Part shown: positions 2 through 20,365 of the stretch, one piece after another
How the letters are laid out: the number at the start of each line of letters is the position of its first letter
How positions within the stretch are numbered: the stretch's first letter is position 1
IMG/VR virus record: IMGVR_UViG_3300005563_000107
Coordinates: 1-22,267 of that record
DNA length: 22,267 bases
Origin: a virus
Strand: one strand, 5' to 3'
The notes under the pieces: model-generated
What the model was told of the DNA's origin: nothing
The model's input: only the letters and a program-made list of their open reading frames with translations
Databases searched by the model: none
Position numbers and translations under genes: made by a program

Positions 2-1447
2 CTCTTCCCGGGTACCCCTGCGAAACTCGGCTTTCTGGCGTCGATGTACTGCGATTGGCATTCGTATTGGAAAGAGGATGCTAGAGACTGGCAGAATCTA
101 CGGGATTTCGAGGGCTTGTTCCGATACAACTGCAGGGATGTTTGCGCTACGTATGAAATTGCTCAAGCGCAGGCACGGAAGCTTGCTTCGGCAAAATTGG
201 AAGCGCAGTTTAGAGAGCGTATGCGGTACAACGGCTATGTCTTCGACATGCAGGAACGTGGCGTCATTAGAGGCGAGATGGAGACTGCACAACTGGAAGC
301 CGAAGTTGAGAACGCCTGCAAAGCCCGCGAGGTCGTCGTCTTTGAAAAGGCTGGACATGAAATTAACCTCGCGTCGCCTAAGCAGGTTGCCGAAGTTCTC
401 TATAAAGACCTGGAATGCAGGAAGCCGCTCAAAGCCGGTGCTGGCGGTACGTCTGACGAAGCACTCATCCAGGTGGCTAAGTGGCATCCGAAACATGCCG
501 AGATGTGCACAGCGATCTTGGAGTGGCGTTCCTTGGCATCCGTCCGCAACAATTTTCTACGGGCGCAACTTGATCCAGATGGAATGCTGCGCTGCAGTTT
601 CAATACTACGGGCACAGAAACCTTCAGATTAACCTCTTCAGGCAATAACTTCGGACGTGGCTGCAATTTACTCAACATATCCAGCGGCAAACGGAAAGAA
701 GGTTCTTCCTTCCGTCTACCTAACTTCCGCCGCGCTATCGTACCGCCGTCCGGTTACACGATTTTCGACTGCGACTTGGCGAGGGCGGATTTACAAGTTG
801 TGGTATGGGAAGCGGATGATGCTGACCTCAAGTGCAAACTTCGCGCAGGGGTGGATATACATACGGAGAATGCCAAGGACATCTTTGGAACGGTATCGCC
901 AACGCCTGAACAGCGCGAACGCGGGAAGACCTTTGTTCATCTTACAAATTATGGTGGAGGGGCACGCACGTGTGCAGTCGCTGTTGGGTGCACAGTCAAA
1001 GAAGCTGAAGTGGCACAGCGTAGGTGGCTTGCCGCCCATCCGGGTATCTTGGAGTGGCATAAGCGTACGCGGGAAGCGTTAGAGCGCAACCGCACAGTTG
1101 CCAACAAGTTCGGCTACCGCATGGTGTTCTTCGATAGGGTAGATGACGCCATGTTTCGCGCTGCGCTGGCGTGGGTACCGCAGTCTACTATTGCCATTGT
1201 GGCTAGCCATATTCACATGAGGATGGAAGATTTGTGCGGCGCACAAATCCAGGTGCAGATGTATGACTCGGTGATGGGTATCTATCCGACCGTGGATGAG
1301 AATGTTATCCTGCCGAAACTATTCGAAGCAACTCAGGTTCCCATCCCATACCCAGACCCGCTCATCATCAGCATGGGTTTGAAGACGTCCACAAAGTCTT
1401 GGGGAGCTTGTGAGGAACGGAAATGGCCGCTAAAAAACGCAGCGTAA
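2..1447 (+). CDS. DNA polymerase, family A (5'-truncated by window edge)
   Basis: Replicative DNA polymerase of the Pol I type; the reading frame is open from base 2, so the gene starts upstream. Numbering from the first in-frame Met (base 44), a YNCRD at 28-32 fits the Exo III motif (Y-x3-D) of a 3'-5' proofreading domain, so the missing 5' part should carry Exo I and Exo II. Polymerase motif A is D244-LARA-D249, with Asp where E. coli Pol I has Glu710. Motif B is R291-x3-K295-x7-Y303-G304, a full match. Motif C is Y407-D408-S409 where the usual triad is His-Asp-Glu: the catalytic Asp is kept and both neighbours differ. It heads a tight plus-strand replication block and overlaps the next gene by 25 bp. 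The family is certain; the full length is unknown. Confidence 0.95.
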   Translation, partial: LFPGTPAKLGFLASMYCDWHSYWKEDARDWQNLRDFEGLFRYNCRDVCATYEIAQAQARKLASAKLEAQFRERMRYNGYVFDMQERGVIRGEMETAQLEAEVENACKAREVVVFEKAGHEINLASPKQVAEVLYKDLECRKPLKAGAGGTSDEALIQVAKWHPKHAEMCTAILEWRSLASVRNNFLRAQLDPDGMLRCSFNTTGTETFRLTSSGNNFGRGCNLLNISSGKRKEGSSFRLPNFRRAIVPPSGYTIFDCDLARADLQVVVWEADDADLKCKLRAGVDIHTENAKDIFGTVSPTPEQRERGKTFVHLTNYGGGARTCAVAVGCTVKEAEVAQRRWLAAHPGILEWHKRTREALERNRTVANKFGYRMVFFDRVDDAMFRAALAWVPQSTIAIVASHIHMRMEDLCGAQIQVQMYDSVMGIYPTVDENVILPKLFEATQVPIPYPDPLIISMGLKTSTKSWGACEERKWPLKNAA

Positions 1448-1790: not shown

Positions 1791-3020
1791 ATGTCAAAAG
1801 TTCTAGCAATGCCGCCAAGGGACAGCGCCTTTCAAGAAAAAGTGCGGCACAACTGGCTTGATGCTTTCCTCGAGTATGCCAGCTATGGTGAGGCCAGTCC
1901 CCGGCTCATGTGGTGGGTAGGTGTGTCCACCATAGCGGCGGTGCTTCAGCGGAAGGTGTGGTTCGACATGGGGGACTTCCAGTGGTCTCCCAACTTCTAC
2001 ATCCTGGTGGTAGGCGAACAGGGCGTGGTCAGAAAGTCAACGTCGATCGACGTCGGTATAAGGATTGCGAAGAAGGTAGATGGCGTGAAGATGGGGCCTG
2101 CCAGTGCAACGTGGCAGGCGTTCATCGACAGGCTGCAGGAAGCGCAGGTGCGTTTCCCGCTACCGAATGGTGAGATGTTCGAGATGGCCTGCATCACGCA
2201 GGCGGTGTCGGAGTTCGGTACCTTCTTCAAGCCCGAGGATCGAGAACAGACAGACGTGCTCACCGATCTATGGGATGGCAAGCTGGACACATGGGAGAAG
2301 GCGACGCGCACCGTCGCCTCCAATAGCATCACCAATCCTTGGATCAACCTCATAGCAGCCACCACGCCCAAATGGGTGTCGCGCAACATGAGCGCCGACG
2401 AGCTAGGCGGCGGCATGATGAGCCGCATCATCTTCATACGGGAGGATATGCCGGACAAGGATGTTCCATACCCTATGGATGTGATGCCCGTGACACGCCC
2501 AGGCATGTATATGGCTTTGCTGCACAAGTTGAGGGAGTTGGGGGACTTGATGGGGCCATTTGGCATCACCCCTGAAGCCAAGGAATGGGGAAGCGCATGG
2601 TACATAAAAGAGCGCGATGAAATGCGCTCTGGGGGGTTGGTGGAACTTGAGGCGGGTTTCAGAGGTCGGAAGCAATGTCACCTACATAAGCTGGCTATGG
2701 TAGTAGCCGCCGCTAAAGGGCGGTACAACATAGAGCTGGAAGACATGCTGGAGTCCGCAAAAAAGCTGGAAGAGGTGGAGGGCGATGCGCGGCGCGTCCT
2801 CGGGTGTATAGGCCACACCAAGATAACAGGTGCGGCGGCAAGCATCGTAGCCACAGTGGAGCGCATGAAGCAGATCAACCGGAAGAAGCTTTACAAGGAT
2901 TTCTTCTTCAGCACGCTGCAATGGAATGAATTCATTGAGGCGCTGCGTAGCGCAATACGCGCAGGACTCGTGATTGAGTCCGGCAGCGACCTAGACCCTA
3001 TTGTTAAATATCGGGAGTAG
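1791..3020 (+). CDS. Phage P-loop ATPase / helicase-like replication protein (DUF3987-like)
   Basis: A 409-aa protein. A modified P-loop, G75-EQG-VVRKST84, follows a hydrophobic strand (NFYILVV); the Gly that normally precedes the Lys is Arg. Downstream are a VSEFGTFF segment at about residue 145 that may serve as the acidic Walker B-like region, and an NLIAATTPKW segment that resembles the sensor strand of RecA/DnaB-type ATPases. The C-terminal 80 residues look like a small winged-helix-type region. Overall it resembles phage proteins annotated as DUF3987 or primase-helicase C-terminal domain, and its place after the DNA polymerase supports a role as replicative helicase or loader. The ATG at 1791 is the first possible start after the in-frame TAG at 1782; the nearest Shine-Dalgarno (AGAGGA, 1769-1774) is 16 nt away, which is long. 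The exact activity is inferred. Confidence 0.65.
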   Translation: MSKVLAMPPRDSAFQEKVRHNWLDAFLEYASYGEASPRLMWWVGVSTIAAVLQRKVWFDMGDFQWSPNFYILVVGEQGVVRKSTSIDVGIRIAKKVDGVKMGPASATWQAFIDRLQEAQVRFPLPNGEMFEMACITQAVSEFGTFFKPEDREQTDVLTDLWDGKLDTWEKATRTVASNSITNPWINLIAATTPKWVSRNMSADELGGGMMSRIIFIREDMPDKDVPYPMDVMPVTRPGMYMALLHKLRELGDLMGPFGITPEAKEWGSAWYIKERDEMRSGGLVELEAGFRGRKQCHLHKLAMVVAAAKGRYNIELEDMLESAKKLEEVEGDARRVLGCIGHTKITGAAASIVATVERMKQINRKKLYKDFFFSTLQWNEFIEALRSAIRAGLVIESGSDLDPIVKYRE

Positions 3021-3023
3021 ATC

Positions 3024-3119
3024 ATGAGCATGTTTAAACACATACCCTTGACCGACAAAGTGCTTATGGCGTGTGCGGCGCTGCTAGCGCTGGCCCAGGC
3101 TGTATTACGGCATCTATAG
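3024..3119 (+). CDS. 31-aa hydrophobic peptide
   Basis: Reads MSMFKHIPLT, then DKVLMACAALLALAQAVLRHL: a short basic/polar head followed by one helix-length hydrophobic stretch (about residues 13-28), so it may insert in the membrane. A GGGAG Shine-Dalgarno at 3013-3017 lies 6 nt before the ATG, inside the end of the helicase-like gene, and the next gene follows after 10 nt with its own AGGAG. The spacing and signals fit a real gene in the operon. Function unknown. Confidence 0.6.
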   Translation: MSMFKHIPLTDKVLMACAALLALAQAVLRHL

Positions 3120-3129
3120 GAGAAACGAA

Positions 3130-3324
3130 ATGGGTTGGAGCAGTGGTAGCGATTTGATGGCGTGCATCATCCAGGATTTGAAAAAGGAATTGCCCGATAA
3201 AGATACAAGAACCATTGTGTACAAAGTGCTTATAAAACACTTTGAGAACTACGACTGCGATACGCTATATGAGTGCAAATTGTCCGATCCAGCTTTTAAG
3301 GCCGCGTTGAAACCGCGTCGATAA
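3130..3324 (+). CDS. Conserved-type small phage protein (64 aa), unknown function
   Basis: Starts MGWSSGSDLM and carries an acidic, aromatic C-terminal half (HFENYDCDTLYEC). The pattern (MGW-x-SGS, then IVYKVLI, then FEN-DCDTL) resembles small hypothetical proteins common in replication regions of other phages, but no function is known to me. An AGGAG at 3118-3122 sits 7 nt before the ATG. It is the last plus-strand gene of the block and its last 29 bp overlap, tail to tail, the end of the Rz1-like gene on the other strand. Confidence 0.8.
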   Translation: MGWSSGSDLMACIIQDLKKELPDKDTRTIVYKVLIKHFENYDCDTLYECKLSDPAFKAALKPRR

Positions 3325-3610
3325 GCGCATCCAAACGGGCTTGGCAGTTATAGTACTGGCCGGCCACTTCCACTATTTTCCAGACCACTTCGCCTGCGGT
3401 ACCCTCATCGAGGGGCGTCAGATCCGGGCAGCGCACGAGTAGTTCGTTTGGAACCTGCAAGGGCGTCGTTAACGATTGACAGCCCGGAACCACCAATACA
3501 GCTAGCAGCACCAGCGCGAGAAACCCGATATAGATCAGCGCTGCGCCTGACCACAACAGCCTTATCTTGCAGGTCTGCCAAAGACCGCGCCAATTGTCGG
3601 GAAACCTCAT
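3296..3610 (-). CDS. Rz1-like outer-membrane spanin lipoprotein
   Basis: A 104-aa protein in a different frame from, and overlapping, the Rz-like gene. From the chosen ATG (3610) a hydrophobic segment at residues 21-41 (SGAALIYIGFLALVLLAVLV) ends in a lipobox-like VPGC with Cys44, after which the mature part begins QSLTTPLQVP. Rz1-type o-spanins are attached to the outer membrane by such a lipid and join Rz to fuse the two membranes at lysis. The ATG at 3610 has AAGGA 8 nt upstream; ATGs at 3616 and 3640 are possible but less well spaced. The 43-residue signal is long for a lipoprotein. Unlike lambda Rz1, it is not fully nested: about 109 bp extend beyond the end of Rz. It ends tail to tail with the plus-strand replication block. 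Confidence 0.78.
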   Translation of the reverse strand: MRFPDNWRGLWQTCKIRLLWSGAALIYIGFLALVLLAVLVVPGCQSLTTPLQVPNELLVRCPDLTPLDEGTAGEVVWKIVEVAGQYYNCQARLDALIDAVSTRP

Positions 3611-3764
3611 CTGCATGTTCCTTCTGCTGCTGCGCAGCATTCGTGATAGCAGCTATTTTAGCTTCGTACTTGAGGCGTGCGACATGATGGCCCCACAAAT
3701 AACCCGAGAAAAGACACAGCATTGCGACAGCAATGCTAGTTGCCAATGACGGGAGGCTCGGCAC
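3405..3764 (-). CDS. Rz-like inner-membrane spanin
   Basis: A 119-aa protein with an N-terminal signal anchor (SIAVAMLCLFSGYLWG, about residues 10-25) followed by a charged, Gln/Ala-rich helix likely to form a coiled coil (KYEAKIAAITNAAQQQKEH and on to about residue 75). This is the layout of i-spanins, which span the inner membrane and periplasm and act with Rz1. The start chosen is a GTG at 3764, supported by AGGA 8 nt upstream; an in-frame ATG exists at 3902, but it would add a Cys/Pro-rich extension antithetical to this family and lies inside the holin. The gene overlaps the holin 3' end by 29 bp and shares about 200 bp with Rz1 in another frame. Confidence 0.78.
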   Translation of the reverse strand: MPSLPSLATSIAVAMLCLFSGYLWGHHVARLKYEAKIAAITNAAQQQKEHADEVSRQLARSLADLQDKAVVVRRSADLYRVSRAGAASCIGGSGLSIVNDALAGSKRTTRALPGSDAPR

Positions 3765-3990
3765 GGTTCTTTTCCTGTTGGGAGGCTGTCCGGGCGTGCA
3801 GGAGCACATTGGCAATGCCCAACGCGACGAAACCCATCCCATACAGGTTGGCGGGCAAGTAGTCGTGGAAGGTCGGCCAAACATTGCCAAGTTGCTCCGC
3901 AAGCGGTACCGCAGTGACGAGGATAGTATTAATCCTGACGTTGCAATTACAGCGCATCATACGCGCCCAAAACACGGCAAGCTCTTTCAT
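3736..3990 (-). CDS. Putative holin
   Basis: An 84-aa protein starting MKELAVFWARMMRCN, with two hydrophobic segments: about residues 18-30 (INTILVTAVPL) and about 48-66 (LYGMGFVALGIANVLL). They are separated by a short loop carrying LGNVWPTFHDYLP, and a charged C-terminus follows. This resembles small phage proteins found beside endolysins and annotated as holins. Holins form inner-membrane holes that release the signal-less endolysin. The ATG at 3990 has a strong AAGGAG 6 nt upstream; the ATG-like start 30 bp earlier has no such signal. It lies between endolysin and Rz, the usual lysis order. The role is inferred from size, membrane segments and position. Confidence 0.7.
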   Translation of the reverse strand: MKELAVFWARMMRCNCNVRINTILVTAVPLAEQLGNVWPTFHDYLPANLYGMGFVALGIANVLLHARTASQQEKNRAEPPVIGN

Positions 3991-4006
3991 GTCTGGCTCC
4001 TTATTG

Positions 4007-4432
4007 TTAACCTTTCTCAACCATGGATGCCAGCCGCAATGCCCGATCCCCTACCTGTTGCGCCCATCGGGAAATGCGCAGGCCCTGAGCAGCATTCTGA
4101 AACTTCCCGTTCTTAATTGCAACAATCGTGTTACTAAAAGTTGCTGCGCGGTTTAAGCCAAGATTTAGCATCCAATCTAGCAACGCCGCTTGACGGCGTA
4201 ATGACAAGCTTTGCCACACCTCTTCTCCGAAGAGGGTGATGCAGTCCTTCTCTGCGTTGGCGATGTCGTGCTGGAAGAGGAGGTTGATTACATCGTCGGG
4301 GATGCCGTTATCGGTTAAGTTGTGGCCAATGCCGATGGTAAGCTTGCCTACGGTGTCGGTGTAGGGCTTGGCCTTGCGTCCTTCGTGCAATTCCAAAAGA
4401 GGTTGAACTATAGCGAGCAGTTCTTTGTCCAT
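4007..4432 (-). CDS. Endolysin, GH24 (T4-lysozyme-type) muramidase
   Basis: A 141-aa protein that cleaves the beta-1,4 bond between MurNAc and GlcNAc in peptidoglycan. The catalytic pattern E-x8-D-x5-T is exact: Glu17 (LHEGRKAKPY), Asp26 (TDTVGK) and Thr32 (LTIGIGHN). Helices rich in Ala/Leu with LLDWMLNLG follow, as in the family, and the length is within the usual range. There is no signal peptide, so it should need the holin encoded just downstream. The ATG at 4432 has no clear Shine-Dalgarno (the sequence before it reads ACCTCCAAAATATACGCT), so the start is chosen from the family layout. It is followed by holin, Rz and Rz1 on the same strand. Confidence 0.92.
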   Translation of the reverse strand: MDKELLAIVQPLLELHEGRKAKPYTDTVGKLTIGIGHNLTDNGIPDDVINLLFQHDIANAEKDCITLFGEEVWQSLSLRRQAALLDWMLNLGLNRAATFSNTIVAIKNGKFQNAAQGLRISRWAQQVGDRALRLASMVEKG

Positions 4433-4454
4433 AGCGTATATTTTGGAGGTAGTT

Positions 4455-4790
4455 ATGTGGCTTCAGGTTGCTTTAGGAATCTTCGTTTTTTACGTCGTCG
4501 TCAACATGCTTTGGGCATTGTTCGTCGGTACGCTTTGGGGTTACGCTTACCTGCGGCAAAAAGCTAGGCAAGCAATGCAACCCCGTGTTACGCAGCGCGA
4601 CATCGACAAGCTACGCATCAGCTTTGGGTACGAACCTACTGCCCAAATAAACTCTGTACCCCTGCGTAAGCCGCAGGCATGCCCTGCACCATCAATGGAA
4701 CTTGTCCTGCCGCAGCGGGCGCAGCTTGAGACGCAAACAGGGACTGCCCGGGCCCCGTTAGAAGGCCGTACCGTAACGCTGGCCGAGTAG
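4455..4790 (+). CDS. Single-pass membrane protein, counter-oriented, unknown function
   Basis: A 111-aa protein starting MWLQVALGIF. Residues 2-30 form a strongly hydrophobic segment (VALGIFVFYVVVNMLWALFV), followed by basic residues (RQKARQ), which places the C-terminus in the cytoplasm by the positive-inside rule. A GGAGG Shine-Dalgarno at 4445-4449 sits 5 nt before the ATG, the best ribosome site in this area, and argues for a real gene although both neighbours run on the other strand. The last 155 bp are antisense to the 3' end of the 515-aa virion gene, and this part of the protein is low-complexity in appearance (Pro/Gln/Arg). I saw no convincing promoter upstream. It may be a lysis- or superinfection-related membrane protein; the family is not recognised. 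Confidence 0.6.
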   Translation: MWLQVALGIFVFYVVVNMLWALFVGTLWGYAYLRQKARQAMQPRVTQRDIDKLRISFGYEPTAQINSVPLRKPQACPAPSMELVLPQRAQLETQTGTARAPLEGRTVTLAE

Positions 4791-6183
4791 CTGCCGCAAG
4801 CAAGCCAAGTGGATGGTGTCCAAGCAGCGCCGGGAGCATACCGGATACAATGTCCGCGCCACCCAGGATAGCGGGGTCTTCCTTTGGTACGCCAGACGCC
4901 TTGGGCGCATGGGCGGCAAACTGCCCAATAAGCTTTAACTCGTCAGTCAGAGGCGCTTTGTTCTTGAGCGCAGTCGCAAACGCAGGCGCGCTAACTTCAC
5001 CGCTCGGTTGCATAGCGCGCTGCACAGCGTACTGTTTTGCAAGCTGCTCCCTCCCGGCGCGCATGGCGTCAATCAATTCTTGGCCGGTGGTAGAGCCTTC
5101 CGTAGCGGGGCCTGCACCGCTGGTCATATGCATAGCAATGTTGTCTTCAATGGCCTTGGCTATGCCGTTGGCCGCTTCGCCAAATTTGACATCCCCTTCC
5201 TTATAGGCTTGAGAGGCTTTGCCGCGCAGGTTCTGGATGGCGTCTACAGCATCTTTGCCGGTGAAGTTGCGCACGTTGTGCGCGTTCACCAAGTCCAAGA
5301 TGTCCTGCCGGGTGTTGGCCGGAATAGAGCTTTTTGCGCCACCCTGGTTTAAGGCAATATCGGCCAGGGTGCCGCCGTAGATGTTATCCGTTGGCATCTT
5401 GGTTAGGGCACGCGCAGGGCCGTAGGCATTCTCCGAGGTATCCGCAATCAATTTCTGCAGGTTATCGGCACTCAGCGGCGTGCCCTCCGGCAGTCCAGCG
5501 GCCTTGGCCGCCAACTTGTTGGTGAGTTCCTGGTTGCGCGCCTCGGCAATCTTGTTCACCTGGTTGCTTCCGGCAAAGGTCTGCAGAATGTTCCCCAAAG
5601 GGGAACTGCCTGCCTCCTTCGGAGGCACTACGTACCCGGCTTTTTGGGCATTCTGCAAGGCTTGCTGCTGCGCGGTGAGCTGCGCCGGGGCATCGTAGAG
5701 GGCCTGCGCGCCGCCGCCCAGGGCCTTTGCACCTTGGATGCCTTGGGTAATCTCACCCATGACAGGATCGGCGAAGCCGAACCCCATGCGGGTAACCGCC
5801 TGTACGGCGCGCTCCGTGTCGTTCTCCGGCTGTGGTAGGTACTTGTCAACAAGCTGGTTGATAGTGGAGGACACGGGCGCAAGATGAGTGCCCGCCACCG
5901 CGTTGACTCCGGCGTTGAGGGCGTCTCCCACGGCACCTACGGTGCCGCTCATGCCTTGAATGCCCGCACGGGCCGTCAGGCCCAACTGCCGCATGAACTC
6001 TTCCCCTATGGGGCGCGAAGTCGCCCCAGCCGGGGACCCTGTGGACGCAGAACTGGTAGTAGAAGCGGTGCTGCTTCCCCCCGGCGGGGCCTTCATTAGA
6101 CTACTGAGTTGGGATAATTGTTCCTCAGTAGGGTTGTCTGGCATGTTGACCATTTCGCCGGTCGGCATCTTTACGAGTGGCAT
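4636..6183 (-). CDS. Putative internal virion / DNA-ejection protein (515 aa)
   Basis: A large Ala/Gly/Gln-rich protein. The N-terminus (MPLVKMPTGEMVNMPDNPTE) contains a short conserved-looking MPTGE motif often seen in phage structural proteins, then a Ser/Thr/Ala linker (about 33-55) and a long helical body. An Ala/Leu-rich C-terminal part (about 455-515) includes HHPLGLLAAATRPALRYG. There is no enzymatic motif. It follows the 653-aa protein with a TAATG overlap and precedes the lysis genes, so it belongs to the tail/internal virion set. Three such proteins in a row in a short-tailed phage are commonly the ejection proteins that leave the head with the DNA; the assignment rests on context and composition, not on a recognised domain. 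Confidence 0.6.
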   Translation of the reverse strand: MPLVKMPTGEMVNMPDNPTEEQLSQLSSLMKAPPGGSSTASTTSSASTGSPAGATSRPIGEEFMRQLGLTARAGIQGMSGTVGAVGDALNAGVNAVAGTHLAPVSSTINQLVDKYLPQPENDTERAVQAVTRMGFGFADPVMGEITQGIQGAKALGGGAQALYDAPAQLTAQQQALQNAQKAGYVVPPKEAGSSPLGNILQTFAGSNQVNKIAEARNQELTNKLAAKAAGLPEGTPLSADNLQKLIADTSENAYGPARALTKMPTDNIYGGTLADIALNQGGAKSSIPANTRQDILDLVNAHNVRNFTGKDAVDAIQNLRGKASQAYKEGDVKFGEAANGIAKAIEDNIAMHMTSGAGPATEGSTTGQELIDAMRAGREQLAKQYAVQRAMQPSGEVSAPAFATALKNKAPLTDELKLIGQFAAHAPKASGVPKEDPAILGGADIVSGMLPALLGHHPLGLLAAATRPALRYGLLTGPGQSLFASQAAPAAAGQVPLMVQGMPAAYAGVQSLFGQ

Positions 6184-8144
6184 TATTTTCTCTTTCCACT
6201 GTGCTTGGCTAGGTAGTCATCCAACGACATAGCGCTGCCGCCTTGCGGGGTAGCGCCTTGCGCAGCGGAGACGTTCGGAGAACTCGCATTGCCATACAAC
6301 GTGTTGTACTGGTCCGTGAAGTTCTGCTTTGAGGTTTGCGCGAAGTTTTTGATGTTGGCAAGAGCCTTGCGCATAGACTCTTCGGTTTGCGCGCCGCGCA
6401 AGTCTGCGATGTAACCTTCCAAGCGAGCGCCTTCTCGATCCGATAACTGACCAAAGCCGCTGCTGCCATTGGCGCTGGACTTCTTCAAGTCGGCTAAGGT
6501 GCCGATCACCAGTTTGTTCTTCAGGGTATCCAGTAATGCTGCTGCATCTGCTCCCTGCGTGCCCGGAATCTTGCCCATACCAAGCGCGCCCCTAATGCCG
6601 GTATTAAGGGACAAGCCAGGGTGCTGAAGTAACTCATCTACATTCTGAGAAAGGCGGTCAAAGTTACCTGTCATGCTCTTGTATTCCATGGTGGCGTTGG
6701 CTTGACCTTCATTGCGCTTAGCCTCTGTAGTCTGCATTTCTTGGCCGGTTTTAGCTACGTCGGCTTGCGTGCGCTGCGTGTTGTTGGCGGCATTCTGACG
6801 CTCAAGCGCAAGTCGTTGCTGCTCAAGTTGCATCTGCGGTGTTTGCGCCGGGTCTTGTGTCATGCCCACCACTGGCGTGCCGCCTGCGCGGGCAATTTCC
6901 CGCTGCAATGCGGCGCGGTTGCTCGGATCGGTTTCCTTCGCCAACTCGTCTTGGAATATCTGCACACGGTCACTGCCTGCGTTTCCGCCTTTAGTGAGCG
7001 TCGGTGTCGGGCCGCCAACGGAAGCCGGGTTGTTGTTGATGGCTTGCCAATTGGCGGGCGCGGCCATTGGGTTGGCCGGTGCAGTTTGTGTTGGTGCTGC
7101 TTGTGCAGGAGCAGCGCCGGAATATCGTTGAGGTAGTTGGCCGGAAGATTGGTATTGTTGCCATTCCGTGGGCGATAGCGTCATCTTTTGGCCGTTAGAC
7201 ACCGGGATTTCCACTTGTCCGTATTGGCCCTTAATGCCGTTCTCCAGTCCGTACACTTGCGCCATAGCTGCCAAGCTACCCGGAGCAATGCTGACGCCGC
7301 CGTCCGGCGTGCGCATATAGACCATGCCATTCTGAGACACAATGGGCTTGGTGGCGTCTTGAATGAGGCTGCCCGCGCCCTTTATATCGCCGCCAGCGAG
7401 GTGCAAGGCAAAAGCGCGGGGATCGACTCCAGGCGGCAGATTAAACAGCCCTGTGCCGCCCTGTACACTACCTGCGGGTGATCCTTGCGCTCCCTGTGCA
7501 GCTTGGCCTCCAGGAAGCACACCCATACCGCCGAGAAGACCCTCTGTCATGTCCTGGTTGCGCTTGGCGACTTGGCCCTGCACATCATGCAGCACGCCTT
7601 CGGCTTCGGCGTTCTTGGCCTGTGCAGCCCACAGCGGCTGCTGCGCTTTTAGTTGATCCTCCGCGATTTTGGCGCGGCGCGCTTCTGCGTCGGATTGGGC
7701 TTGCAGGTGCTTGGCTTGTGCGGATTGGAACTGGCCAGCAAGCGCAGTCTGTAAAGCGGAACCCCACGGGTTGGGGCTGTTGCTGGAGCCAAGCAAGGAC
7801 AGCCCGAACTGGAATGCAGGGTTATTTAATAAAGCACTGAACCTTTCGCTGAAGTCTCCTGTCGAAGGAGAGCCCCCGGCAGGGGGTGTGGGCTGCGCAG
7901 TGGCCGGTTGCGCTGGCTGAGACGGCTGGATATTGGGCGTGACGGTTTGGCCGTATAGGCCACTGCCAAGCGGCATATTTCCCGGGGCCTCCTGCGGAAG
8001 GTCATACATGCCGGTGCCCAGCTTCATTTTTGGCGGGCGCAGCGTGGGCGTCACCCCTCCCATTAGCGATTGCACCAGCGGTAACTGGTTAGGGTCTTGG
8101 CCGTCCATGCCGAACAGGCCGCTTCCAAGTGGCATTCTTAACAT
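6183..8144 (-). CDS. Putative internal virion / ejection protein with repeated GSGLF-type motifs (653 aa)
   Basis: A 653-aa, Gln/Ala/Gly/Pro-rich protein. The N-terminus holds three near-copies of a short motif: PLGSGLF (5-11), LGTGMY (42-47) and PLGSGLY (58-64); a fourth, GGTGLF, is at 229-234. A Pro/Gln linker covers about 68-95. Helical, coiled-coil-prone stretches lie at about 140-200 and 440-510 (LEQQRLALERQNAAN). The C-terminal region with LKKSSANGSSGFGQLSDRE resembles a segment I associate with large phage virion proteins. The ATG at 8144 has AAGGA 6-7 nt upstream. The stop overlaps the next ATG as TAATG. Likely an internal virion protein ejected with the DNA; this is inference from size, composition and position. 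Confidence 0.62.
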   Translation of the reverse strand: MLRMPLGSGLFGMDGQDPNQLPLVQSLMGGVTPTLRPPKMKLGTGMYDLPQEAPGNMPLGSGLYGQTVTPNIQPSQPAQPATAQPTPPAGGSPSTGDFSERFSALLNNPAFQFGLSLLGSSNSPNPWGSALQTALAGQFQSAQAKHLQAQSDAEARRAKIAEDQLKAQQPLWAAQAKNAEAEGVLHDVQGQVAKRNQDMTEGLLGGMGVLPGGQAAQGAQGSPAGSVQGGTGLFNLPPGVDPRAFALHLAGGDIKGAGSLIQDATKPIVSQNGMVYMRTPDGGVSIAPGSLAAMAQVYGLENGIKGQYGQVEIPVSNGQKMTLSPTEWQQYQSSGQLPQRYSGAAPAQAAPTQTAPANPMAAPANWQAINNNPASVGGPTPTLTKGGNAGSDRVQIFQDELAKETDPSNRAALQREIARAGGTPVVGMTQDPAQTPQMQLEQQRLALERQNAANNTQRTQADVAKTGQEMQTTEAKRNEGQANATMEYKSMTGNFDRLSQNVDELLQHPGLSLNTGIRGALGMGKIPGTQGADAAALLDTLKNKLVIGTLADLKKSSANGSSGFGQLSDREGARLEGYIADLRGAQTEESMRKALANIKNFAQTSKQNFTDQYNTLYGNASSPNVSAAQGATPQGGSAMSLDDYLAKHSGKRK

Positions 8145-9210: not shown

Positions 9211-9672
9211 TTAACTCCCTTCCTTATTGAAAAACGGGAATTTCCCGCCATTCAACGCACGGCTTATGGACTTTACGTGTACGCCGAAATGGTTTGCGAT
9301 ATCGGCCATTTTCATTCCTTCTGCACGCATTGCATGTGCGCGCCGGAGGCCGTCAAACCCTATGCCGCGCTTTCCTGCTTTGGCTATATCCAACATGTTT
9401 TGTTGATGCGTACCTAAGTACAAATGATGCGGAGCAACGCATAAGGAATTGTGGCAAGTATGCAATACATGCAAGCCTTTTGGAATCTCTCCTTTGTGCA
9501 ATATCCAAGAAATGCGCGCACCATTTTCTGTTTTCTTTCGGAAGGTGGCGCGGGGCAGTTCGTAATTGCAAACCATCTTGGTTTTTCCTAGCCATAACCA
9601 ACACCCCGATGCAGGGCAAGGTTCAACGTATTCTTGAAAATCTTCAGGCGATCTTAAGGCGGGTTTCTTCAT
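9211..9672 (-). CDS. HNH homing endonuclease (free-standing)
   Basis: A 153-aa protein with an HNH core: HVLHTCHNSLC-VAPHHLYLGTHQQN. This gives the His-Cys/Asn/His-rich betabeta-alpha-metal fold of the HNH_3-type family, preceded by a C-x4-GCWLWLG segment that may contribute to zinc or fold stability. After the core, RRAHAMRAEGMKMADIANHF begins a helix-turn-helix likely to bind the target. Such enzymes nick or cut phage DNA and spread their own gene. The start (ATG 9672) lies 29 bp inside the GNAT gene, and the last codons (GGG AGT TAA) include the GGGAG Shine-Dalgarno of the next virion gene. It is a neat insertion between virion genes. No intron-like split gene is seen around it. Confidence 0.88.
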   Translation of the reverse strand: MKKPALRSPEDFQEYVEPCPASGCWLWLGKTKMVCNYELPRATFRKKTENGARISWILHKGEIPKGLHVLHTCHNSLCVAPHHLYLGTHQQNMLDIAKAGKRGIGFDGLRRAHAMRAEGMKMADIANHFGVHVKSISRALNGGKFPFFNKEGS

Positions 9673-10096: not shown

Positions 10097-11511
10097 AGTT
10101 CTGCGTCCGCTTCAAAGTAGTCGGTGGCCGTGTAAGTAAAGTTCGTGTTCACGCTAGCTAAGCTGCCATTGCATAGAAGACGTGCGCCGTTGGGTGTTGC
10201 CAAGCCCACCGTGGGCGTCGAGACCATGTTGGTCATAGTAATGCCCGGCGTGACAGTGGCTACCGTGGGCGTTGTGCGCATGGGCACGGTAAAGGAAATG
10301 GGGTAGGAATAAACCGTGTTGGCCGTGTAGGTCGCCATGTTGAAGCCTGAGCCGGTAATGCCCCGCCAGTAGTAGCGCTGGCAACGGTCTAACTCATCCA
10401 TGTAGTGCTTGAACTCCAGGTCGGTTGCCATAGTGCCTTCTTCAAGCTGGATGCCGGTGATCTTGAAGACGTTGCCTGCCGAAGCCAGGAAGTTCTGTTG
10501 CGAGGAAGTCGCAAGGGCGTTCGCGGCTGTCCAGTTGCCCGCGCCTGCTTGGTACGTAGAACCTATGCCAAAACCCCAGGAGACAATCAAGCCTGAGCCG
10601 CTGCTGTAGTCCCAGGTGCCGCTGGTAGTGGCCTCCGGGATGGTGACGGCAAAGCGCGCCCAGGTGTTGATGGCGCTGATGGTGTAGTTCTGCACAAACG
10701 CTGCATTAAGGCCGGAGTTGCGCATTGAGACGCAGTAGATGCCGCTGCGGTTGGTGTACGTCCAAAACGAGAGCACGTTCGGCTTATGTGCGATCTGCCG
10801 CCAGTCGTAACCCTCTACGACGTAGCGCAGATAGCCGAACTCACCGGCGGCAAGGGCGCTGTCTACGGCAGAGACGGAGATACATAGAGAGGACGTGAGA
10901 AACTGCCCGGCTTGCGCCACCGTCGGTACGTTGGCGGCGTTGGCGCTGCGCTCGGCGCGGGTAATTTTGACGGAGCAGGAAGCGGACTGCACCCAGGCAA
11001 AGCGGTCGGCGGTGTATGTGGTGGCGTTATTCGCCACCGCGGTGAAGCTGTTACCGCGCTGCCAAACATCCATGCACGAGTTGATGATGACGTTGCGCCG
11101 CCAGTTCATTTGCGGCTGCGAATTGTAGATGTTCGCGCCCACGCCTACTGCGATGGCGGACAACGAGGCCGTCAAGTCTGGGGTGTTGGGGTCTAAGCGC
11201 ACCGACACGAACGTGGCAGAGACGCTATTGATGGTGCCGTACTTAATATTGGCCCCATCCCACATTTTCACACGGCGGCCGTAGTGAAAAGTGAGCACGT
11301 CCGCAGTGTTAAGGGAGAAAGAGGTAGCCGACAGATACGAAGGCGTAATGCCAGGGTCGAAGTACTGCGCATCTGAGAGGTACGTCCGAATGGACGCCAT
11401 CATCTCCCGTGCGCAGTCGTTGATTGTGGAGGGCGCTTGTCCCTCCGGCCAGCCATCGGGGGGAGTAGCATTGTTGCTACCTGCGGTGGTACTCCATAGT
11501 CCGATTTTCAT
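10093..11511 (-). CDS. Tail fibre / receptor-binding protein
   Basis: A 472-aa protein. The N-terminus (SNNATPPDGWPEGQAPSTIN, then DCAREMMASIRTYLSDAQYF, about residues 12-51) matches the attachment region common to many short-tailed phage fibres. A jelly-roll-like domain begins at about residue 140 (NVIINSCMDVWQRGNSF, then TADRF), a pattern seen in carbohydrate-binding fibre domains. Near residue 355, TGIQLEEGTMATDLE followed by DELDRCQRYYW is typical of fibre domain ends. The last about 80 residues are Thr/Val-rich beta structure that would form the distal tip and probably decide host range. The ATG at 11511 has AGGG about 9 nt upstream. The stop overlaps the GNAT start. Confidence 0.85.
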   Translation of the reverse strand: MKIGLWSTTAGSNNATPPDGWPEGQAPSTINDCAREMMASIRTYLSDAQYFDPGITPSYLSATSFSLNTADVLTFHYGRRVKMWDGANIKYGTINSVSATFVSVRLDPNTPDLTASLSAIAVGVGANIYNSQPQMNWRRNVIINSCMDVWQRGNSFTAVANNATTYTADRFAWVQSASCSVKITRAERSANAANVPTVAQAGQFLTSSLCISVSAVDSALAAGEFGYLRYVVEGYDWRQIAHKPNVLSFWTYTNRSGIYCVSMRNSGLNAAFVQNYTISAINTWARFAVTIPEATTSGTWDYSSGSGLIVSWGFGIGSTYQAGAGNWTAANALATSSQQNFLASAGNVFKITGIQLEEGTMATDLEFKHYMDELDRCQRYYWRGITGSGFNMATYTANTVYSYPISFTVPMRTTPTVATVTPGITMTNMVSTPTVGLATPNGARLLCNGSLASVNTNFTYTATDYFEADAEL

Positions 11512-14261: not shown

Positions 14262-14882
14262 TTAGAAGGTTGTGGGGCGCAAGCGCCCGTGAAAGCGTGT
14301 GGTGTTGCGCAAGTTTAACTCTTTCATAGCCATTTGCAACATTGATTGGTGGTAGGGAACTCGCGTTCTGTCAAGTACCGGCACAACAATTACCGACATG
14401 AGCATTTCCAGCGTGGCGGCATGCGCAATCAGGTTCTGCGCCTCGTTTGTCCAGGCGTTGGAATCGCTATCTGCCGATAGCGTCGGCAGGCTCTTGACGT
14501 AGTAAACCATAGCCGGGTAGGCGCTATCGGGAATGAGCGCTAGCTCAAAGCGGTCGCCTCGGTAATGGTAATGCGTAGGTACCGAAGTGGCGGAGATGGC
14601 ATTCATGGTACGGATGCCCTCGAAAGACTCTTCTTTGAGCCGATTCCAGCCGCCGCTGTCGCTGATCTCCAGGCGGTCGAGGTAGAGAAAATCTGAGGGA
14701 ACGGAAATGTAGGTTTGGCCCGCGGAGCAGGCTACGGAGGTTTGCGCCTCATTGAACCAGAAGCGCGAACCCTCATAGCACTTTATTGTATTGTTGATAG
14801 CACGCTTGACCTCGGGGATGAGATCAAACCTGTTCAGGTAATCCAGCGCTATCCGGTCTATCACATCCTTGTACGTCGCCAT
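14262..14882 (-). CDS. Head-tail adaptor-like protein, paralogue A (206 aa)
   Basis: Starts MATYKDVIDRIALDYLNRFD. It shares its order of motifs with the next gene (DYLNR, KRAI, RFWFN, PSDFLYLD, SLPTLSADSDSN), so the two are tandem paralogues. It is expected to bind the portal and help link head and tail. A strong AGGAGG stands 8 nt before the ATG, inside the 3' end of the glycosyltransferase gene, which it overlaps by 59 bp. The C-terminus (LRNTTRFHGRLRPTTF) is basic and lacks the Gln/Asn-rich tail of paralogue B. Two adaptors in one genome could form different rings or be alternates. Confidence 0.78.
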   Translation of the reverse strand: MATYKDVIDRIALDYLNRFDLIPEVKRAINNTIKCYEGSRFWFNEAQTSVACSAGQTYISVPSDFLYLDRLEISDSGGWNRLKEESFEGIRTMNAISATSVPTHYHYRGDRFELALIPDSAYPAMVYYVKSLPTLSADSDSNAWTNEAQNLIAHAATLEMLMSVIVVPVLDRTRVPYHQSMLQMAMKELNLRNTTRFHGRLRPTTF

Positions 14883-19285: not shown

Positions 19286-20365
19286 TTAGTTAGAAGTATG
19301 CGGAGCAGCGTACGTACGCACCGCAATTGTGGCGAAGTCGGAGCCGTTGTAGACCATCTTCTTCATGCCAGCCATGCAGCCGGCCGCCACACCGAATTGA
19401 TTTTCGTAGTCGAAGTAGTCCTCTACCCACTGGTAGCGCTCCGGTCCGTTGTCACGTCCGAAGGCCATGCCCACAGCTTGCGCGCCACACATAACAGCTT
19501 GGCGCACTACGTTGCCGGTAGCACTGCCAGAGCTAGAGAATGCGGGTACACGATTAGAAGCGTGCAGGATAACGCCGTTGTACTCGCCCAGCGCGCCTGT
19601 GTAGATCGGGTTATTGCTGATTTGACCGCCTTGAATGGCTGCCTTCTGCAAGTCCGCCCACTGACCAGTGGAGACGTTGGTGCGCATGTCCGTCACTTGG
19701 TAGTGGTGCAAGAACATAACGTACTTCTCTTCGCCGTTAATCATGATCGGGCGGATCGGCACGGCCAAGGTCTTGGCCTTTTCGACTGCCACGTCAATCA
19801 GGGTCAGCGTAAATTTCTGCGTAGCGGTGTTGTCGAATGACCACGCGGTAGGAGCGCCGCTGCCGCCTGCGATAATCAGGTGGTCGCTGTCAGCAGCAAT
19901 CGCGGATTGCATGCCGGTGTAGCGCGTATCGCTTTGGAAAGTGTTGCCGCAAATCTGGTTGAAGAACCATGTGTCAATGCGGTCAGCCCACCAGTCTTGG
20001 AGGCTCAAGCGGGCGTGCTCGCGCACGTCAAACGGAACCAGTTGGCGGCTAAAGCGGCCACCTTCGCGTACAGCGTGACGAAGCTGTTGGATGTACAGAT
20101 CGTCGCTGTAGTAGTTCACGCGCTCTTCGTTGCCCTCAAGCGTGGCATCCCCAAGGATACCGTTGCCGGACAAGAGGCGACGCAGCGGAATACGAATACG
20201 GTCACCCGCACTCTTCTGGGTGTCGTCGTAAATCTGAATCAGCGAGTTGTCGTCTTTGCCCATGAACTTGAACACCCAAGTTTGCTTGAGTGCCTCCACG
20301 GACATCTTTTTTGACCACAGCTTGACGGCTAATGCATCACCTGTGGCGAAACTGGTAACAGCCAT
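19286..20365 (-). CDS. Major capsid protein, N4 gp56 / DUF4043-type HK97-fold family
   Basis: A 359-aa protein. The N-terminus (MAVTSFATGDALAVKLWSKK, then MSVEALKQTW) and the segment GDRIRIPLRRLLSGNGILGD (55-73) with LEGNEERV are the recognition marks of the N4 gp56 capsid family. QQLRHAVREGGRFSRQLVPF, the Trp-rich DWWADRIDTWFFNQ and the C-terminal ERYQWVEDYFDYENQFGVAA also fit. The size is near that of the family. It assembles the icosahedral head. GGAGGGAG lies about 5 nt before the ATG; part of it is held in the 20376-20391 hairpin. The ATG at 20365 starts the family N-terminus. It follows the 160-aa gene after a 98-bp gap that carries the repeat motifs. Confidence 0.9.
   Translation of the reverse strand: MAVTSFATGDALAVKLWSKKMSVEALKQTWVFKFMGKDDNSLIQIYDDTQKSAGDRIRIPLRRLLSGNGILGDATLEGNEERVNYYSDDLYIQQLRHAVREGGRFSRQLVPFDVREHARLSLQDWWADRIDTWFFNQICGNTFQSDTRYTGMQSAIAADSDHLIIAGGSGAPTAWSFDNTATQKFTLTLIDVAVEKAKTLAVPIRPIMINGEEKYVMFLHHYQVTDMRTNVSTGQWADLQKAAIQGGQISNNPIYTGALGEYNGVILHASNRVPAFSSSGSATGNVVRQAVMCGAQAVGMAFGRDNGPERYQWVEDYFDYENQFGVAAGCMAGMKKMVYNGSDFATIAVRTYAAPHTSN

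Follow-up and report, generated by a model that had tools for sequence, protein, structure and literature searches.

Taken together, the anatomy, composition and predicted product of a small plus-strand frame at positions 4455-4790 of the window (the whole stretch of DNA analysed, a virus record of 22,267 bases) suggest that this frame, here called gene X, is probably a real gene, an orphan of one lineage and accessory in kind. To the fuller reading, that X is a real accessory gene recently gained by, or newly born in, one phage lineage, we give about an even chance. X looks like an ordinary accessory gene, and its function is not readable from its sequence.

Gene X and its surroundings in the window

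A rightward block of genes extends up to 3324 and includes a family-A DNA polymerase (PF00476, matched on a near-identical copy), an HTH protein (PF01381), a primase-like protein (PHROG 14296) and a 64-codon ORF. Leftward genes begin at 3296, the early and late genes thus converging with an overlap at 3296-3324, and from there on all accepted genes except X run leftward, in the order o-spanin-like, i-spanin-like, holin-like and endolysin, then the virion-type genes of 515 and 653 codons (minus strand) and on to the capsid protein (19286-20365, also leftward). Amid the late genes lies an HNH endonuclease (9211-9672, minus strand; PF13392, E 7e-11), a 40% relative of which in the phage record MW202512.1 is labelled 'endonuclease'. 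At the early end, window positions 2-1447 (plus strand) correspond to the 3' part of one 792-codon frame in locus L081 (3146-5524, plus strand) that combines Uracil-DNA glycosylase (PF03167), 3'-5' exonuclease and family-A DNA polymerase. The features around X are as follows.

3130-3324, plus strand: last ORF of the early-strand block, converging on the lysis genes; SD AGGAG, no family match
3296-3640, minus strand: o-spanin-like ORF; PHROG 456 Rz-like spanin (E 5e-6), PF23793 LysC (E 2e-5, below cut-off)
3405-3902, minus strand: i-spanin-like ORF, true start not settled; PHROG 4297 Rz-like spanin (E 7e-5)
3736-3990, minus strand: holin-like gene of 84 codons; 30-33% identity to relatives, SD AAGGAG
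4007-4432, minus strand: endolysin; PF00959 (E 7e-10), PHROG 7 (E 1e-13), own SD match absent
4433-4635, no strand: 203-bp gap from the 515-codon gene to the endolysin; no late-strand ORF of at least 50 aa
4445-4449, plus strand: SD GGAGG of X, from the sequence
4455-4790, plus strand: gene X, probable orphan 111-aa single-helix membrane protein; ATG, TAG, SD, helix, codon score
4636-4790, both strands: 155-bp overlap in which X and the 515-codon gene end antisense to each other, from coordinates
4636-6183, minus strand: 515-codon virion-type gene; tblastn match to 'putative internal protein C' of Xanthomonas phage PBR31 (E 2e-28)

The earlier note had described X as an isolated plus-strand membrane-protein gene among leftward genes, and both anatomy and composition support this description. 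The frame is present from ATG to TAG with 111 codons, its two neighbours (the endolysin and the 515-codon gene) both lie on the minus strand, its last 155 bp are indeed antisense to the virion gene, and the single membrane segment takes the form of one strongly hydrophobic stretch with a mean KD of 2.35 over 19 residues. Upstream the sequence reads TATATTTTGGAGGTAGTT-ATG with the GGAGG spaced 5 nt from the start as had been claimed, although its rank as the best Shine-Dalgarno in the area comes down to a three-way tie, since among the 30 starts listed the six letters GGAGGT are the joint longest SD match together with those of 3736-3990 (AAGGAG) and 14262-14882 (AGGAGG).

The 60 codons of X that lie within the gap (4455-4634) look coding. 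Scored against the listed genes of the window they reach 0.140, a value attained by 1.5% of 266 non-gene stop-free segments and by 63% of 285 gene-frame segments (segments of 60 codons that overlap one another, the score including amino-acid composition); the synonymous part of the score gives no separation, with 40% of the null segments reaching the same value. GC content is 0.48 at 4400-4599 compared with 0.59-0.64 at 4600-4999, and is likewise low in the endolysin (0.49-0.54). The overlapping part of X scores 0.010, and when the virion gene was resampled synonymously the frame stayed open in 767 of 2000 trials, so that an open overlap is to be expected and gives no evidence for a gene. Across 37 loci (559,138 bases, with L075 and L078 partly redundant) we counted 96 ORFs of 60-299 aa with an ATG and a GGAGG at 3-9 nt, of which six reach a KD of 2.0, 16 are antisense over at least 100 bp to an ORF of 300 aa or more, and two do both, corresponding to about 0.08 look-alikes of X per window. 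These two are L036 6083-6901 and L089 6471-6836, the latter judged by eye to be a chance frame. Structured RNA was also considered as the content of the 203-bp gap and rejected, as the gap is not unusually structured (z -1.24 on the late strand, 0.70 on the plus strand) and had no Rfam match at gathering score. On balance we think it probable that X is translated.

A single-sequence AF2 model of X (mean pLDDT 68.7, pTM 0.35) has a confident helix at residues 2-40, with pLDDT of 95, 98, 97 and 82 in the first four ten-residue blocks; the rest is of low confidence, with a helix at 47-55 and otherwise no structure. The long helix is hydrophobic up to residue 33 and is followed by RQKAR, which by the positive-inside rule would place the tail in the cytoplasm. 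The model is thus consistent with a helix at the inner membrane and a basic, disordered cytoplasmic tail. Foldseek with this model on BFVD returned 34 matches, none at E <= 0.001.

Relatives of X and the same locus in related phages

Sequence searches indicate that X is an orphan: apart from the window, a single near-identical contig is known to carry it. That contig was the sole match among viral contigs; across an alignment of 5,239 bases it differs from the window by 28 mismatches and 2 gap openings, and X contains neither. Phage records gave three matches to X, none better than E 7, plasmids gave none at E 1, and the 77 pattern matches in species genomes included no relative (the pattern-based scans of viral contigs and species genomes detect close relatives only). 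No relative was found in 25 related records, in a search run without a positive control; among frames of 30 aa or more in 172 loci, six rows were the window itself or the near-identical contig and the next best had E 2.9. PHROGs, NCBIfam, PADLOC and PDB gave no family match, and a Pfam hit to ArAE_2_N was discarded (E 0.02; 14.4 bits, cut-off 23.5). As an observation on the near-identical contig itself, its differences from the window cluster in the lysis genes, at 3727-3940 and 4145-4171, some perhaps being small insertions or deletions, and X and its gap are free of any difference.

The capsid protein has matches in 42 contigs, and its best match among phage records is MW202512.1, a circular record of 44,400 bases given as an isolate of the Podoviridae. 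It yielded no homologue of either the 515- or the 653-codon protein, so that its locus is matched by position only; there, two short late-strand ORFs precede its endolysin-like gene. We compared the neighbourhood of X in five contigs representing about four lineages (L067/L071, L066/L074, L073, which is close to L066, L072/L085 and L084), chosen for a homologue of the 515-codon gene or for the same gene order. X is absent from all five, although the neighbouring genes are kept, and none has a plus-strand ORF similar to it. The endolysin follows directly after the virion gene in L071, leaving the space empty; in L066, L073, L072 and L084 the place of X is taken by a short late-strand ORF whose hydrophobic stretch is C-terminal. 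These four ORFs resemble X in place, small size and single hydrophobic segment, yet differ in lying on the late strand, in the C-terminal position of the helix and in having no sequence similarity to it.

In each of the five contigs the frame equivalent to that of X runs into a stop 10-17 codons inside the overlap; the C-terminal end of the window's 515-codon protein aligns with that of L066, whereas the long C-terminal extension of the L071 virion protein means that the position compared there is not homologous. The earlier note had named two findings that together would speak against X, a missing plus-strand transcript and a reading frame not conserved in related phages outside the overlap; the second is what we observe, the frame being kept in none of the five contigs within or beyond the overlap. 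A recent orphan gene would also give a non-conserved frame in relatives.

Two side observations concern the related contigs themselves. The homologue of the 515-codon gene in L067 (5687-7912, minus strand; contig 3300044648_000092) has more than 200 extra C-terminal residues that are absent from the window and from L066. In L085 the final rightward gene ahead of the lysis genes (10531-11103, plus strand; contig 3300003322_000931) encodes a sigma-70 region 2 protein (PF04542, E 4e-11; PHROG 1740, E 2e-14); this protein is a candidate switch to late transcription and was not seen in the window.

Among annotated phages, Xanthomonas phage PBR31 has all genes from its 515-codon homologue to the spanin in a single direction, and in Acidovorax phage AP1 the 515-codon homologue is followed by a short gene and then by four annotated genes on the opposite strand, none similar to X. 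We also scanned 80 loci, kept from 508 related ones, for a divergent membrane ORF beside the endolysin (opposite strand, 45 aa or more, SD of four or more letters, KD of 1.6 or more). Besides the near-identical copy this gave six loci (L099, L106, L131, L135, L136 and L152), whose ORFs start 88-250 bp from the endolysin match, none as near as X (22-23 bp). Eight more distant endolysin loci included L011, with a divergent 51-codon GTG ORF (5791-5946, minus strand; KD 2.79) that lacks an SD, lies 49 bp from the endolysin and gives no alignment with X; the membrane ORF that L006 has on the opposite strand, about 400 bp upstream, is likewise not similar to X. These scans suggest that small genes standing alone on the opposite strand are not rare in such surroundings. 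They revealed no family uniting those genes with X, and a divergent membrane ORF beside the endolysin was rejected as a general pattern.

The orphan status of X bears directly on the alternative that it is no gene, merely a frame left open by chance across 203 bp of untranslated gap and the antisense of the virion gene, behind a fortuitous SD. The missing homologues, the frame closed in five related contigs, the ease with which the overlap stays open, the uninformative synonymous score, the lack of a promoter above chance (see below) and the two look-alikes in 559 kb, one of them judged chance, all speak for it. However, a six-letter SD, a hydrophobic helix and coding-like composition would then have to coincide in the part outside the overlap, with only about 0.08 look-alikes expected per window, and 203 bp of a compact genome would be left with no coding role; we therefore regard a chance frame as somewhat unlikely.

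Possible roles and transcription of X

Lysis genes are present in the window apart from X, namely the endolysin, the holin-like gene and two spanin-like ORFs. Two tested relatives of the holin-like protein match PHROG 1356 holin (E 7e-4 and 1.4e-3), and the window's own protein gave no PHROG match. X itself matched no holin or antiholin family in PHROGs, NCBIfam or PDB, its Pfam hit lying far below cut-off, and its strand, opposite to that of the lysis genes, is at odds with co-transcription with them. The suggestion that X serves as an extra holin, an antiholin or an exclusion protein thus found no support, there being no such family match and lysis genes being present without X, and the suggested lysis roles are weakened. 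Among known defence and exclusion families X had no PADLOC or PHROG match, which weighs little; many exclusion proteins share no sequence. With lysis genes present without X, and X in no known family, an accessory role is the likeliest, and that it might act in exclusion in particular seems rather unlikely.

A lysis-timing protein made from the plus strand (a second holin, an antiholin or a lysis regulator) would fit a start 22-23 bp from that of the endolysin, a single membrane helix and the short membrane ORF found in the same place in four of five related contigs, though there on the late strand. We consider it improbable nonetheless, given that X is opposite in strand, resembles neither those late-strand ORFs nor any holin family searched, and accompanies a holin-like gene already present.

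With respect to transcription, the best relaxed promoter score upstream of X was reached in 78% of 300 shuffles. A consensus scan of 2900-6400, a weak method, gave one promoter-like site, located elsewhere than X, and two terminator-like sites, fewer than in shuffles; neither of the two lies on the plus strand from 3324 to 4455. The method is blind to factor-dependent termination and gave no terminator-like site at all in the region of the relative L066. The start codons of X and the endolysin are divergent and 22-23 bp apart, with the SD of X inside that space. The missing SD match of the endolysin is not striking, since nine of the 30 listed starts lack one, endolysin included (one of the nine being the arbitrary i-spanin start).

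This geometry also fits a noncontiguous operon, in which a rightward early RNA would cross the lysis genes antisense, end with X and silence lysis until late transcription. The gene map does place X as an opposite-strand gene nested among genes of the other strand; X lies on the early strand with no plus-strand terminator-like site between it and 3324, early and late genes converge with an overlap at 3296-3324, and both the arrangement and an antisense effect are reported for Staphylococcus aureus phage 80alpha (PMC11087260). However, a missing terminator match proves little, the reading is drawn from geometry, and relatives have the same convergence without X, so that we hold this operon, too, to be improbable. 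Its most elaborate form, in which the lysis cassette lies antisense within an early transcript ending with X, the X leader covers the endolysin start, and a late switch frees lysis and shuts X, we judge very improbable; if true, lysis would be timed by antisense in both directions, and the early product of this timer would be an orphan membrane protein.

We thus return to X as an accessory gene of one lineage. As such it would encode a small protein of the inner membrane whose one helix is N-terminal. Lying on the strand of the replication (early) genes, X would be transcribed rightward, either by read-through or from a promoter of its own. Its product would most likely work at the membrane of the host soon after infection begins, where it might, for instance, shut out superinfecting phages or modify the host. 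Late transcription, running leftward through the virion gene and the endolysin, would counteract expression of X. Judging from the start-codon geometry, any X transcript whose leader exceeds about 22 nt would run antisense to the endolysin start and is predicted to pair with the beginning of the endolysin mRNA. This accessory reading is favoured by the start, SD, helix and coding-like composition outside the overlap, by the rarity of look-alikes, by the absence of X from five contigs with neighbours kept and by lysis genes present without it. It is weakened by the lack of a diverged homologue, of a promoter above chance and of separation in the synonymous score. Inserted gene cassettes do not usually overlap a virion gene by as much as 155 bp, which weakens it too, as does the absence of the tyrosine integrase PF00589 from nine of nine related records (eight possibly fragments), a domain found in all 14 control genomes; the search was confined to PF00589. 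Given this absence, the lysogen expression typical of morons may not apply, and the phage may be virulent, with X serving early infection rather than a prophage.

Comparison with known systems

Small opposite-strand orphan genes are easily overlooked and are a known source of phage exclusion and host-changing functions. As it stands X is one more unproven orphan gene and no new kind of system; it is well delimited, its position against the endolysin start suits a direct test of antisense lysis control, and the remaining interest lies mostly in its putative antisense arrangement with the lysis genes. Phage accessory genes transcribed against lytic genes include, by its position, lambda bor.

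In PMC7067206, genes antisense to lytic genes are called characteristic of moron or accessory loci, which favours the accessory reading, and the moron STMMW_20121 described there is, like X, a lone small gene opposite lytic genes and absent from relatives. Compared with these morons, X has no found promoter, overlaps a virion gene by 155 bp and has a product unrelated to the known ones, and there is no sign of a temperate phage (PF00589 in 0 of 9 related records). Phage LUZ100 has antisense RNA within its structural genes, proposed to be non-coding (PMC10134795); the feature in common with X would be transcription against the late region of a podovirus, whereas X is an ORF with an SD and a membrane helix. 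Antisense proteins in prokaryotes are reviewed in PMC7457138. Finally, the noncontiguous operons of phage 80alpha were established by direct RNA sequencing and mutants, whereas the arrangement of X is known from geometry; like the locus of X, they have an opposite-strand gene nested in the other strand, each antisense to the other (PMC11087260).
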